From Nostoc sp. TH1S01 (lineage in GTDB: Bacteria > Cyanobacteriota > Cyanobacteriia > Cyanobacteriales > Nostocaceae), in the NCBI GenBank assembly GCA_018993265.1, contig JAGKSW010000061.1, forward strand, positions 1 to 64,000: 64,000 bases of DNA, written 5' to 3'. Both the position numbers and the translations under genes were made by a program. This document shows, piece by piece, positions 29,477-36,090 of the stretch. The notes under the pieces are model-generated. The model made no database searches. It was given only the letters and a program-made list of their open reading frames with translations, and had not been told where the DNA came from. Position 1 is the stretch's first letter, and each line of letters opens with the position of its first letter.

Positions 29477-32323
29477 TTACAGAGCGATAACAGAGGAGCC
29501 TGCTGTCACCACCACAATTTTATCTGGGTGGAGTAACTCACGGGCTGACTGATTGACTTGGGCAAGAGTAACTTGTTTGATTTTATCAGTGAAGGAATTT
29601 AGTTCTGTTATGTTCATTCCATGTACCTGATTCATTAGCATTGTATGTGCTAATTCTTCGGGGTCAGCTAGGGAAATTTTATAGTTGCTAATTAAAGTAT
29701 TCTTAGCTGTCTCTACATCATTTGCTGTGACACCTTGCTGATGAATTTCTTGTAAGAGTTGGCGAGTACTAGCGATCGCTTTATTACTATCTTCAGGACT
29801 AGTTTGCATTTCTATCCAAAATGTCCCAGCATTTTTCTGTGCTTGTAAGTAGCTATAGATACTGTAGGTTAACCCTTGGCGATCGCGCACTTCTGCACCT
29901 AAGTAACTAGATAACGTATCGCCTCCCAAAATTTGGTTCAATACTAAAGCTGCATAATAACGAGGGTCTTGACGATTAATCCCTGTGTTACCCATAAAAG
30001 TAATGGCTTGCGCTTTACCTGCCATCACCGGGTTTAGACTTAAGACATTATCTGGTAATTTTACATTTGGATATTGGATTGTTGGTGGTTGACCACTTAC
30101 TTGCCAATCTCCCAATTCTTTTTCGATCAGCGATCGCACTTGGGTAGATTCAAAATCTCCGACGATCACCAGCACTGTTGTATCTGGACGATAATGCTTG
30201 GCCTTAAAAGCAATTACATCCTCACGTTTAATTCGTCTCAAGCTTTGTTCGGTAGGAAAAGAATGTAAAGGATGTTGTTTTGGGTAGAGGGATTGGACAA
30301 AAATTCTTTTCGCTACTTCTGCGGGATCATCTAATTCTTGTTTAAGGTCAGTTAAAGCTTGCTGGCGATTTAATTCCAATTCTTTTTTGGGAAATGTACT
30401 GTTTTTCACTACATCCGCTAAAGTTTGAATCAGAATAGGTAAATCTGTTGCTAAACCATCGCCTTCAATCCGTACACCTTCACGATAAGCGGTAAAATCC
30501 AGGGATGCGCCTCTATCTTCCAAGGCTTTAGCCAAAGTTAAAGCATTCTTGCTTTTTGTTCCACTCATTAAGTTATCAGCCACCAGTGATGCTAGTCCCG
30601 CTTGATTTTCTAAATCAAATTCTTTTCCAGCTTTGATATGACCATTTAAAGTTACGGTGGGTGTACTTTTATCTGGTAATAGCAATACTTGTAGACCGTT
30701 AGCTAAAGTAAATTGCTCTGGTAGCGTCAGATTAGAAGTTTTTTGACTTGCCTCGTGAGATACTTGCTTAACAACGTCTGTTGTTTCCTCTAGTGGCGGT
30801 AGATACTTATCCAGTTCTGATACGGGTATAGGTCTAGCAGCAGATAAATTTTCTGTAGTTTGATTTAAGTTTAATTTTTTACTAGTTTCTGTCGGATATT
30901 GCTGAGTTGGCTGGAATAATCCGACTACACGGGTTTCTGGTTGGAGATATTTTTTGGCTACATTGACAATATCTGCACCAGTCACTTGACTAACAGCAAC
31001 TAAATAGCGGTCAGTATAGCGATAGTCACCAGCGGTTATTTCATCGTTACCTAATTGCATTGCTTGGCTGGTGATGTCCCGATTACTCAAAATCACGCCA
31101 GCTTCTAACTGCATTTTAGCCCTGGTTAATTCTTCTGGCTTGACTCCTTTTTGTACTAAATTAGCGATCGCACGATTTAATACCGTTTCAATCTTCTTTA
31201 AATCTTGATGATCATCTGCTGTAACTAACAACTCATACCAGCCAGCCTCTTGCAAGCTAGAAACAGATGCAGAGATTTCACTCGCTAAACCAGATTCCAC
31301 CAAAGCTTGATAAAGTCGTGAGTTTCTTCCCTCTGTCAAAACATAATCCATCACTTCCAACGCAGGAATATCTGGGTGATGTAAATTAGGGAGTGGATAA
31401 ACCACTTGCAGCATCGCGGCGGCTCCCTGTTCTCGTAAGATTAGGGGAGTGGGGAGTAGGGAGTGGGGAGTGGGGAGTAGGGAGTGCTGAGTGCTGAGTT
31501 TTGAGTTTTGACTCTTCGGTAATTTCCCAAATATTTTTTTGACTGTTTCTAAAGTTTTACTAGTTTGAAAATCTCCCACAATTACTAATACAGCATTATC
31601 AGGAGTATAAAATTTGCGGTAATATTCTCTGACTTGCTCAACTTGGAATTTTTCTACATCTGCTTTGTTACCACCCACAGGTAATCCGTAAGCATGATTA
31701 GGAAACAAGGCGTGCATAACAGCACGGTTGAGGCGATATTCAGGACTATTTTCGTAACCTTGTAATTCTGAAATTACTACTCGTTTTTCGGTTGCTAGTT
31801 GGTCTGGTTCAATGAGAGAATTTTGCATTCTATCTGCTTCTAGAACTAGCAGTGCTTTGAGTTTGTCTCGTTCTACAGTGTTATAGTAAGCTGTTTGGTC
31901 ATAACTAGTAAAAGCGTTGGAGTCACTACCTAAAGCACTAAATAACCTACCAAATTGCACGGGACGGTTTTTTGTACCTTTGAACATCATGTGTTCGAGT
32001 TGATGTGCAATACCGTTTATTCCTGGTGCTTCGTGGCGTGAACCGACTTTGTACCACATTTGCACACTCACAACTGGTGCAGTATGCACTTCTTTTGTTA
32101 AAACAGTCAGACCATTTTCTAATACTGTTTTACGTACGTTGGCTGTAATTGTGGAGTTATTTATATGAGTTGCAATCAATTGTGTTTGAATATTTTCTGA
32201 TTTGATTGTAGCCGTATACTTGCTGTCAGCAGGTTGATCACTTAAACAAAATACTGTGATTATCCACAGACTTAAAAATAAAAATGACCAACGATATCTA
32301 TACCCTATAAAAAACAGAGCCAT
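29477..32323 (-). CDS. M16 family zinc peptidase, double-domain, exported
   Basis: Pitrilysin/processing-peptidase-type zinc protease. With ATG 32323 as start it has an N-terminal signal or anchor helix (about 12-28), then the inverted zinc motif H107-QLEH111 and a distal glutamate near 186. The second M16 half (from about residue 530) lacks the zinc motif, as is normal for the two-domain form. About 948 residues. An STRR of heptamers lies in frame at 31445-31512 and adds about 20 Ser/Pro/Thr/Leu-rich residues (STQHSLLPTPHSLLPTP) to the linker before the second subdomain. A TTG at 32353 is a less likely start. Substrates are unknown. Confidence 0.9.
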   Translation of the reverse strand: MALFFIGYRYRWSFLFLSLWIITVFCLSDQPADSKYTATIKSENIQTQLIATHINNSTITANVRKTVLENGLTVLTKEVHTAPVVSVQMWYKVGSRHEAPGINGIAHQLEHMMFKGTKNRPVQFGRLFSALGSDSNAFTSYDQTAYYNTVERDKLKALLVLEADRMQNSLIEPDQLATEKRVVISELQGYENSPEYRLNRAVMHALFPNHAYGLPVGGNKADVEKFQVEQVREYYRKFYTPDNAVLVIVGDFQTSKTLETVKKIFGKLPKSQNSKLSTQHSLLPTPHSLLPTPLILREQGAAAMLQVVYPLPNLHHPDIPALEVMDYVLTEGRNSRLYQALVESGLASEISASVSSLQEAGWYELLVTADDHQDLKKIETVLNRAIANLVQKGVKPEELTRAKMQLEAGVILSNRDITSQAMQLGNDEITAGDYRYTDRYLVAVSQVTGADIVNVAKKYLQPETRVVGLFQPTQQYPTETSKKLNLNQTTENLSAARPIPVSELDKYLPPLEETTDVVKQVSHEASQKTSNLTLPEQFTLANGLQVLLLPDKSTPTVTLNGHIKAGKEFDLENQAGLASLVADNLMSGTKSKNALTLAKALEDRGASLDFTAYREGVRIEGDGLATDLPILIQTLADVVKNSTFPKKELELNRQQALTDLKQELDDPAEVAKRIFVQSLYPKQHPLHSFPTEQSLRRIKREDVIAFKAKHYRPDTTVLVIVGDFESTQVRSLIEKELGDWQVSGQPPTIQYPNVKLPDNVLSLNPVMAGKAQAITFMGNTGINRQDPRYYAALVLNQILGGDTLSSYLGAEVRDRQGLTYSIYSYLQAQKNAGTFWIEMQTSPEDSNKAIASTRQLLQEIHQQGVTANDVETAKNTLISNYKISLADPEELAHTMLMNQVHGMNITELNSFTDKIKQVTLAQVNQSARELLHPDKIVVVTAGSSVIAL
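31445..31512. repeat. STRR (heptamer-type tandem repeat) inside the M16 gene
   Basis: Imperfect repeats of GGGGAGT/GGGAGTA and then GTGCTGA/GTTTTGA run through the peptidase gene without breaking the frame. Similar STRRs elsewhere in the window are intergenic. Confidence 0.85.
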
Positions 32324-32472
32324 TTTTTTAGTAGATGCATTTATTAAATGCAATTATATATTTATAAGCGCAATTAGTAATAGTTTATTCTTTCTTCGGG
32401 ATGGATGGAATCAGAGACACTACCAAAAAAAGTTCGTTTAATCACAAAAAGTATATAAAGATATAAACTGAT

Positions 32473-34633: not shown

Positions 34634-34694
34634 ACATAAATTTACATTATCACCTTACAACCGACTGTTTCTAGGAAATCTGGGCAGTCGGTTT

Positions 34695-34826
34695 TGTCAA
34701 TGGTCATTTGTCATTTGTTATTTGTCAATGGTCATTTGTCATTTGTCATTGGTCATTAGTTAAACTCCTCTGCCCCCTGCACCCTGCACCCCTGCTTCCC
34801 CACTCCCAACTCCCAACTCCCCCTCC
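34695..34826. repeat. STRR tract directly upstream of folC
   Basis: GTCATTT-type heptamers at 34695-34759, then CCCTGCA- and CCCAACT-type units at 34770-34826, ending two bases before the chosen folC start. Confidence 0.85.
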
Positions 34827-34827
34827 A

Positions 34828-36090
34828 GTGAATATCGATTCTGTACTTCAACCTTTGCAACATTTTGGTGTGAATCTGGGACTGTCGCGTATTGTCAAAC
34901 TATTGGCAAACCTGGGCAACCCTCATGAGCGGATCTCGGTCATTCATGTTGCTGGGACAAATGGTAAAGGTTCTGTCTGTGCTTATCTCTCTTCAGTACT
35001 TACCACAGCTGGTTATCGGACAGGACGTTACATTTCGCCGCATTTAATTGATTGGACAGAACGAATTTGTATCAATGAAGAACCAATTTCTGCTGAAGAA
35101 TTAAGTCAACTTTTGCAAAAAGTCCAGGCGGCTGTTTCTCCTGATGATGAATATCCCACTCAGTTTGAAATTATTACTGCGGCTGCTTGGTTGTATTTTG
35201 CCCAGCAGCAAGTTGATATTGCAGTGATAGAAGTTGGGTTAGGGGGACGTTTAGATGCGACTAATGTTTGTTCCGAACCTTTGGTGACAGTAATTACTTC
35301 CATTAGCCGCGAACATTGGCAACAACTAGGCCCCACAGTGGCTGATATTGCTAGAGAAAAAGCTGGAATTATCAAGCCTGGGTGTCCGGTTGTCATGGGT
35401 TCATTGCCAGCCGATGCCGAAAAAGTTGTGCGATCGCGTGCCAAAGAATTACAATGCCCAATATTTACACCCCAACCTGCACTGCAAATCTCTCCAGGCT
35501 GGGCAGAATATCAAACACTTCAACATCCCCAAAATTCAATTCAATATCCTTTACCATTACAAGGGCAAATTCAATTAACTAATTCAGCTTTAGCTTTAGC
35601 AACCTTAGAAATTCTCCAACAACAAGGTTGGCAAATTCCTAAATCAGCCATCATCAATGGTATGGTAAACACCAAATGGCCAGGAAGAATGCAATGGCTA
35701 ACTTGGCACAACCATAAATTATTAATTGATGGCGCACATAACCCCGCAGCGGCTCAAGTATTACGTAATTATGTAGATAGTTTAAATCCTCAAAATGTAA
35801 CTTGGGTAATTGGTATGCTCTCCACAAAAGACCATGCCGAAATTTTTCAAGCTCTGCTACGAACAAAAGATAAATTATATTTAGTACCAGTACCAGATAG
35901 TAATTCAGCTAATCCTGTAGAATTAGCAAATCTGGCTAATAATATTTGTCCAGGACTCAGTTTATGTCAAACAAATAATGATTTAACGTCAGCATTAGAA
36001 TCTGCATTTACTGACACAGATAATTTAGTAGTTTTGTGTGGTTCTCTTTATCTAATCGGACACTTTCTAGGAACATTAAATCATTCGTAG
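34828..36090 (+). CDS. folC: Bifunctional folylpolyglutamate synthase / dihydrofolate synthase
   Basis: Mur-ligase-fold enzyme adding glutamate to dihydropteroate or folates using ATP. The P-loop is VAGTNGKGSVCAYL; other family blocks are GRYISPHLIDWTERI, DIAVIEVGLGGRLDATNV (catalytic Glu and metal site), KAGIIKPG with the carbamylation lysine, and LLIDGAHNPAAAQVL in the C-terminal domain. The frame is open back to 34708, but that stretch is translated STRR, so I take GTG 34828 (MNIDSVLQPL), giving 420 residues, the usual length. Gene end and convergent neighbour share a terminator hairpin. Confidence 0.93.
   Translation: MNIDSVLQPLQHFGVNLGLSRIVKLLANLGNPHERISVIHVAGTNGKGSVCAYLSSVLTTAGYRTGRYISPHLIDWTERICINEEPISAEELSQLLQKVQAAVSPDDEYPTQFEIITAAAWLYFAQQQVDIAVIEVGLGGRLDATNVCSEPLVTVITSISREHWQQLGPTVADIAREKAGIIKPGCPVVMGSLPADAEKVVRSRAKELQCPIFTPQPALQISPGWAEYQTLQHPQNSIQYPLPLQGQIQLTNSALALATLEILQQQGWQIPKSAIINGMVNTKWPGRMQWLTWHNHKLLIDGAHNPAAAQVLRNYVDSLNPQNVTWVIGMLSTKDHAEIFQALLRTKDKLYLVPVPDSNSANPVELANLANNICPGLSLCQTNNDLTSALESAFTDTDNLVVLCGSLYLIGHFLGTLNHS

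Follow-up and report, generated by a model that had tools for sequence, protein, structure and literature searches.

A tandem array of heptamers of the STRR type lies within the coding sequence of an M16 peptidase in the window, i.e. the whole stretch of 64,000 nucleotides from a Nostoc-like cyanobacterium that was analysed. This raises the question of how repeat DNA comes to be translated inside an enzyme, and whether it acts there as a switch, as a sequence-only reading had proposed. The heptamers were confirmed to lie in frame within the peptidase linker, since the array is located inside a 958-codon ORF (29477-32353, minus strand). The array itself was likewise recovered, while its earlier bounds of 31445-31512 were corrected to 31444-31513 based on TRF and the reading of the units. 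TRF determined a period of 7 at 31444-31486 (score 72) and a period of 21 at 31444-31493 (score 86). On the coding strand, the units are AGTCAAA, ACTCAAA, ACTCAGC, ACTCAGC, ACTCCCT, ACTCCCC, ACTCCCC, ACTCCCT, ACTCCCC and ACTCCCC. The features of the locus are as follows:

29477..32353, minus strand: M16B peptidase gene with an active and an inactive half (958-codon ORF; the longest ORF begins at TTG)
31991..32005, minus strand: HQLEH, the HxxEH zinc motif, residues 117-121 (from the sequence; invariant in 28 aligned rows)
31673..32104, minus strand: Peptidase_M16 (PF00675), residues 84-227, the better of two stretches
31106..31648, minus strand: Peptidase_M16_C (PF05193), residues 236-416, the better of two stretches; the profile match runs across the linker
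31448..31516, minus strand: interdomain linker, residues 280-302, KSQNSKLSTQHSLLPTPHSLLPT; a recurrent site of repeat DNA in orthologues, modelled as a coil leading from helix to strand
31444..31513, coding strand minus: heptamer array of ten units, nine of them ACTCNNN and the first AGTCAAA; the plus strand is G-rich (GGGGAGT)
31466..31504, minus strand: residues 284-296, the sole segment of at least three residues with a pLDDT below 50 in the half-protein model, within the helix-strand coil

The gene was assigned to the M16B zinc peptidases based on the HxxEH motif together with PF00675 and PF05193, which matched in two stretches each. Its start is probably the ATG at 32323. By sequence, the best solved structures were the Sphingomonas M16B subunits 3amj and 3ami, which match over the first half of the protein. 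An AlphaFold model of this half (residues 71-484, 57 rows) showed a mean pLDDT of 88 and a pTM of 0.86, and its best fold match was 3ami_A with an E-value of 2.1e-40 and a TM of 0.94, which places it in the M16B fold. The full-length model, with a mean pLDDT of 44, was set aside. The linker of the window's peptidase (linker peptide STQHSLLPTPHSLLPTP) comprises 23 residues and is encoded almost wholly by the ten heptamers of 31444-31513. According to the model, this length-tolerant connector of the first two domains is predicted to be disordered. Of three records obtained in a plasmid search with the region, one holds an M16 gene with 66% identity, and the other two are unrelated. In two genomes the M16 gene is interrupted near the middle linker and forms two ORFs, namely at residue ~531 in G006:C1:550329-553282 (L294) and at ~497 in G058:C3:6512396-6516377 (L295). 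These split genes resemble M16B enzymes built of two subunits.

A search for three GGGGAGT units with up to two mismatches gave 119 matches in the 7.65-Mb genome and 0 for the reversed control, which argues against a chance origin of the array. With the whole array as query, 47 BLAST matches were obtained, its own place included. In 864 kb of sampled sequence 111 arrays of period 7 were counted, compared to 0, 6, 1, 3, 1 and 0 arrays at periods of 5, 6, 8, 9, 10 and 11. With its tandem 7-bp units and many dispersed genomic copies, the array of the window is a repeat of the STRR type. The earlier statement that such repeats are normally intergenic was right, yet coding copies were not rare, as 10 of the 111 sampled arrays were well inside ORFs of at least 120 aa (15 by a looser coding mask). 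Since the ten sampled contigs had all matched the GGGGAGT search, the 111 arrays and the ten coding cases are probably somewhat high. The nine host genes encode PriA, a fused ABC ATPase (two arrays), a MalK-type ATPase, an AAA ATPase, a P-type ATPase, PrmA (with the array near the N-terminus), an SNF2 helicase, a chorismate-binding enzyme and the M16B peptidase. In 60 of the 111 genomic arrays, one strand or both could be read through in every frame, and 291 of the 666 strand-by-phase combinations were open. The nearest named relatives by sequence kinship were Nostoc spongiaeforme FACHB-130 and Nostoc sp. FACHB-280, both with 89%.

Two ORFs other than that of the peptidase also deserve mention for their heptamers. 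The SNF2 helicase ORF (L166:2846-7477, minus strand) comprises Pfam intein-splicing and LAGLIDADG domains together with an in-frame array of the CTCCCGA/CTCCCCA type. In the window, TTTGTCA heptamers at 34693-34757 read as the first codons (MSFVICQWSFVICHWSLV) of a putatively FolC-like ORF at 34708-36090 on the plus strand. The start of this FolC-like ORF is likely to be downstream of the heptamers, so that the repeat is probably an annotation trap.

M16 matches were found in all 199 genomes searched, that of the window included (among the matches listed). A first set comprised the linkers of 103 orthologue-type genes and 7 paralogues. Enlarged by named genomes and initially missed genes, it comprised 231 loci among the matches listed, of which 225 showed a linker-spanning ORF and 182 were distinct. 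Subtraction of 7 distant M16 proteins and 19 paralogue rows led to 156 orthologue-type genes, in which 11 rows nearer to the paralogue by one score test were kept. In these 156 genes, 63 of 67 heptamer arrays were located in the linker (in 58 genes) and four near the N- or C-terminus, where the counts refer to related genes and not to independent events. The linker, with bounds fixed after the data were seen, accounts for 14,364 of 446,682 bases (3%). At a looser threshold an array was present in 70 of the 156 linkers, again a count of related genes, and absent from 86. Homologues with the same linker but free of repeat DNA had been named beforehand as a possible refutation; the comparison gave a mixed picture, with 86 linkers free of an array and 70 array-bearing ones that mostly comprise other unit types, and both together point to a recurrent site instead of a single insertion. 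A lone insertion was rejected on the grounds that the orthologue linkers carry different repeats. Sequencing error as the source of the array was also rejected, since the single-contig genomes G006 and G008 have array-bearing ORFs across the linker.

The period of seven bases was also visible in the linker DNA as a whole. In the 156 genes the self-match at lag 7 amounted to 6110/13272 (0.460), compared to 0.282 and 0.289 at the neighbouring lags 6 and 8. For the first 103 genes a lag-7 self-match of 0.456 was determined in the linker compared to 0.251 in the remainder of the genes; lags 14 and 21 were also raised in the linkers (0.415 and 0.388), and other lags ranged from 0.25 to 0.30. With a threshold of 17 of 21, lag-7 stretches were found in the linker of 30 and elsewhere in 3 of the 103 genes. 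The corresponding numbers for lag 8 were 6 and 1, which indicates octamers in a small number of linkers. Paralogue linkers showed lag-7 self-matches of 0.666 (first seven) and 0.428 (all 19 rows).

The linker types varied by species and included SQQSTVN, SQESRVK, RRQEAGG, STQHSAL, PTPHSLL and EWGSGGVG, as well as some without evident repeat. A FastTree phylogeny that excluded the linker was evaluated without a shuffled control. On this tree, the presence of an array changed at least 32 times among the 156 genes, and the unit state (29 states) at least 52 times among the 70 array-bearing ones. For 55 pairs from 11 genomes of the genus, the median identity of the linker was 35% (23-65%) compared to 91% (85-99%) for 200 flanking residues. 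Linker lengths were determined in a set of 145 genes, which differs from the set of 156 used for array positions and unit states. The 78 linkers without array comprised 19-76 residues with a median of 24.5, and those with an array 22-73 residues with a median of 30. Based on these wide ranges, the length is only loosely constrained. The array had also been proposed to add about 20 residues while keeping the frame. The frame is indeed kept, whereas a plain addition of residues was not supported, since the 23 residues of the window's linker do not exceed the median of the repeat-free orthologues, the shortest of which has 19 residues; the repeat therefore occupies the linker. The two largest linkers were L234 with 76 and L209 with 70 residues. 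In L234, SQELRG and KSQGSK seem to enclose a longer element, and L209 comprises five QRGRGAE copies in an eight-residue register, which indicates a period other than 7 bases.

The array density was 4.4 per kb in the linker (63 in 14.4 kb) and 1.4 per kb in the adjacent non-coding DNA (129 arrays in 93 kb, with some non-coding loci probably counted twice). The excess in the linker may originate from the post hoc choice of the linker, from a resident seed such as AGTCA, or from selection.

The pattern of the M16B linker is not unique, as four other host proteins showed a similar one. For this comparison, 60 relatives were searched with the four proteins, and the best 30 loci each were filtered to 24 for PriA, 25 for the ABC ATPase, 25 for the AAA ATPase and 30 for MalK; paralogues may be among these genes, above all in the AAA set, and PriA genes truncated by a contig end are missing from them. 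Among these filtered best loci, arrays were found at residues 450-540 of PriA in 7/24, at residues 335-373 of the fused ABC ATPase in 9/25, at residues 373-399 of the AAA ATPase in 9/25 and near residue 297 of the MalK-type ATPase in 3/30. The remaining comparator arrays (two in ABC, one in AAA, three in MalK) were located at the N-terminus or precede the aligned region. In the single-contig genome G006, PriA gave two separate partial matches at a distance of about 2 Mb (G006:C1:6308023 and G006:C1:4115650; residues 1-468 and 675-891), the first of which ends near the repeat linker, possibly by a rearrangement through repeats. In the draft genomes G002, G020, G025 and G029, PriA pieces stop at most 15 bases from the first base of the contig, at or near the repeat linker. 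This suggests that heptamer arrays break assemblies.

Besides heptamers, palindromes were observed. An inverted repeat with a stem of at least 9 was present in 17 of the 156 linkers, and seven of these were variants of AGACGCGATTAATCGCGTCT. The linker of the window (row L001) showed no inverted repeat of this stem length and is not one of the 17, so it does not hold a palindromic element of the RPE/REP type. The palindrome GTAGAGACGCGATTAATCGCGTCTCTAC, counted with its ends and up to 3 mismatches, occurs in 152 copies in G013 and 79 copies in G014, both of which carry it in the linker and belong to the three genomes richest in it, and in 0 copies in the genome of the window. For the unit ACTCAGC, the match in the linker followed the count in the genome with a rho of 0.84 (n=23 genomes, kinship ignored). 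For CAACAGT, no significant relation between linker and genome abundance was found in 23 genomes (rho 0.26, p=0.23). G016 is the richest in the palindrome among 41 genomes (200 copies), yet its linker is without it. The same genome comprises 740 counts of CAACAGT beside its 200 GAGACGCG palindromes, and neither is found in its M16 linker (L019).

We consider it likely that disordered linkers are colonised recurrently and near-neutrally by heptamers that occur genome-wide, under a filter for reading frame and stop codons. The position of the arrays, their recurrence and turnover, the open frames, the predicted lack of structure and the likeness in four other proteins are shown by the data; near-neutrality and the arrival route of new units are what we infer. 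Heptamer arrays would keep arising or arriving across the genome by slippage, by copying from other arrays or by both, and would persist only at sites where the protein structure permits them and reading is not interrupted. A heptamer free of stop codons encodes one cyclic heptapeptide, whichever of the three frames of its strand is read. As 7 and 3 are coprime, the frame is restored after three units, which make up 21 bases or seven codons, so that only the net length counts. Slippage or insertion in a permissive coil would thus often do no harm as long as the net length fits, and the other cases would be removed by selection. In this way, repeats of the host genome could overwrite the linker at little cost with Ser/Thr/Pro/Gln-rich peptides that differ by species, and the linker would behave like non-coding DNA with an additional frame filter. 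Some observations do not fit this colonisation well: the array density of the linker exceeds that of non-coding DNA by more than plain tolerance would give, the linker content of CAACAGT does not follow its genome abundance and the linker of G016 is free of its abundant palindrome, and some linker repeats (lag 8, 6/103) are not heptamers.

Tandem arrays can slip, and the gain or loss of one heptamer changes the length by 7 bases, which would shift the frame and could switch the peptidase off reversibly. This phase variation, as proposed by the earlier reading, is disfavoured and very unlikely, although rare or strain-level off alleles may have escaped the comparison. Compared between species, with one genome per species and among the matches listed, 225 of 231 loci were open across the linker, and no frame break at the array, i.e. 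no frame-shifted off allele, was found in the other six. Two of these six are one G117 gene fetched twice, in which an out-of-frame deletion involves no heptamers and which was therefore rejected as an off allele. Two are contig fragments of one genome (G093) that end at the linker and are evidence neither way, and two are distant M16 relatives whose match is confined to a different region of the protein. Furthermore, neither the array nor the unit is conserved, so that a switch would need repeated reinvention. Just as improbable is an effect of the nucleic acid itself, in which a quadruplex of the G-rich strand would influence transcription or stability. The plus strand comprises six G-tracts from 31444 to 31486, and related GGGGA(C/T)T oligonucleotides of Nostoc form quadruplexes in vitro according to the available part of the source (PMC4692102). 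However, the mRNA would carry the C-rich strand here, and in 62 of 75 linker arrays the main units are without a run of three G or C, for which reason a conserved quadruplex function was rejected.

An expansion in situ, in which an ancestral linker starting with Lys-Ser-Gln (AGTCA codons) slips and drifts without import, is very unlikely as well. It could explain why linker starts with KSQ or KRQ are common both with an array (17+5 of 70) and without (15+9 of 86), and why the units change stepwise along the window's array from AGTCAAA via ACTCAAA and ACTCAGC to ACTCCCT and ACTCCCC. On the other hand, linkers hold palindromic elements that are abundant elsewhere in those genomes, and a 42-base part of the window's array is 98% identical to the array of the AAA gene in the same genome, although short periodic repeats can converge. 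With somewhat more weight, but still rather unlikely, the linker could be adaptive, with selection for a long, hydrophilic, Ser-rich disordered connector (for domain opening, protease resistance or surface variation) and the repeats as its supply. The composition of the linkers, with Ser at 0.177 compared to 0.065, enriched Pro and Gln and little Tyr and Val, would agree with this, as would the greater median length of array-bearing linkers and the array density above the non-coding background. Yet at the threshold applied 86 of the 156 linkers were without array, the linkers vary in length between 19 and 76 residues with barely conserved sequence, the pattern is similar in the unrelated PriA and three ATPases, and the composition may just reflect which heptamers are stop-free and common. 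A more far-reaching possibility, which we regard as doubtful, would be that certain protein linkers of Nostoc-like cyanobacteria are preferred landing pads into which genomic repeats are actively copied (e.g. by homology-seeded templating on a short resident sequence). Dozens of proteins in each genome, among them essential ones, would then continually receive a changing vocabulary of repeats, and repeat DNA instead of point mutation would drive the evolution of linkers.

The recurrent, near-neutral colonisation can be compared with known systems. As far as the consulted part of the source extends, cyanobacterial STRRs are usually 7-bp repeats of unknown function (PMC2670836). The arrays reported here resemble those of heterocystous cyanobacteria in their heptamer units, many dispersed copies and several unit families per genome. 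Unlike the cases described there, which are intergenic or upstream of genes, one coding linker is reused across related species. Coding STRRs are already known, since 68% of 89 GGGGA(C/T)T repeats of Nostoc sp. PCC 7120 are intergenic, and such repeats also occur in Xanthomonas, as stated in the accessible portion of the paper (PMC4692102). The unit determined here, GGGGAGT, is a very similar G-rich heptamer; the same portion of that paper stresses quadruplexes and does not treat protein linkers or orthologues. In ORFs of Beggiatoaceae, TAACTGA heptamers are read as one heptapeptide (LSVISYQ), with stops on the opposite strand; from the excerpt at hand, they are mostly found near protein ends without recurrence at one site, unlike the arrays of the M16B linker (PMC4679880). 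Rickettsia palindromic elements and REPs are small repeats translated inside unrelated proteins, and REPs were described at about one recB site in two Xanthomonas; these are palindromes and not heptamer arrays, and the available parts of the sources describe no comparable turnover across several species (PMC3733652, PMC10969869). No account of different heptamers repeatedly colonising a single protein linker in several species was found in titles and abstract openings, with few subscription papers covered, which is weak evidence of absence. STRRs are also said to lie inside the RNase P RNA gene (Vioque, 1997), where they likewise colonise a spot in a conserved gene, but this is an RNA gene without a reading frame.

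Altogether, the M16B linker looks like a tolerated landing spot and not like a switch. Caution is required in annotation, where such repeats can give rise to false start regions, and in assembly, given that several PriA fragments break off at a contig end inside the linker. What appeared as the curiosity of one gene becomes a measurable pattern, in which heptamers have taken over linkers in everyday enzymes of these cyanobacteria, namely a peptidase, PriA and the ABC and AAA ATPases. This pattern offers a natural experiment on linker tolerance and a ready set of sites to measure the birth and turnover of short bacterial repeats.
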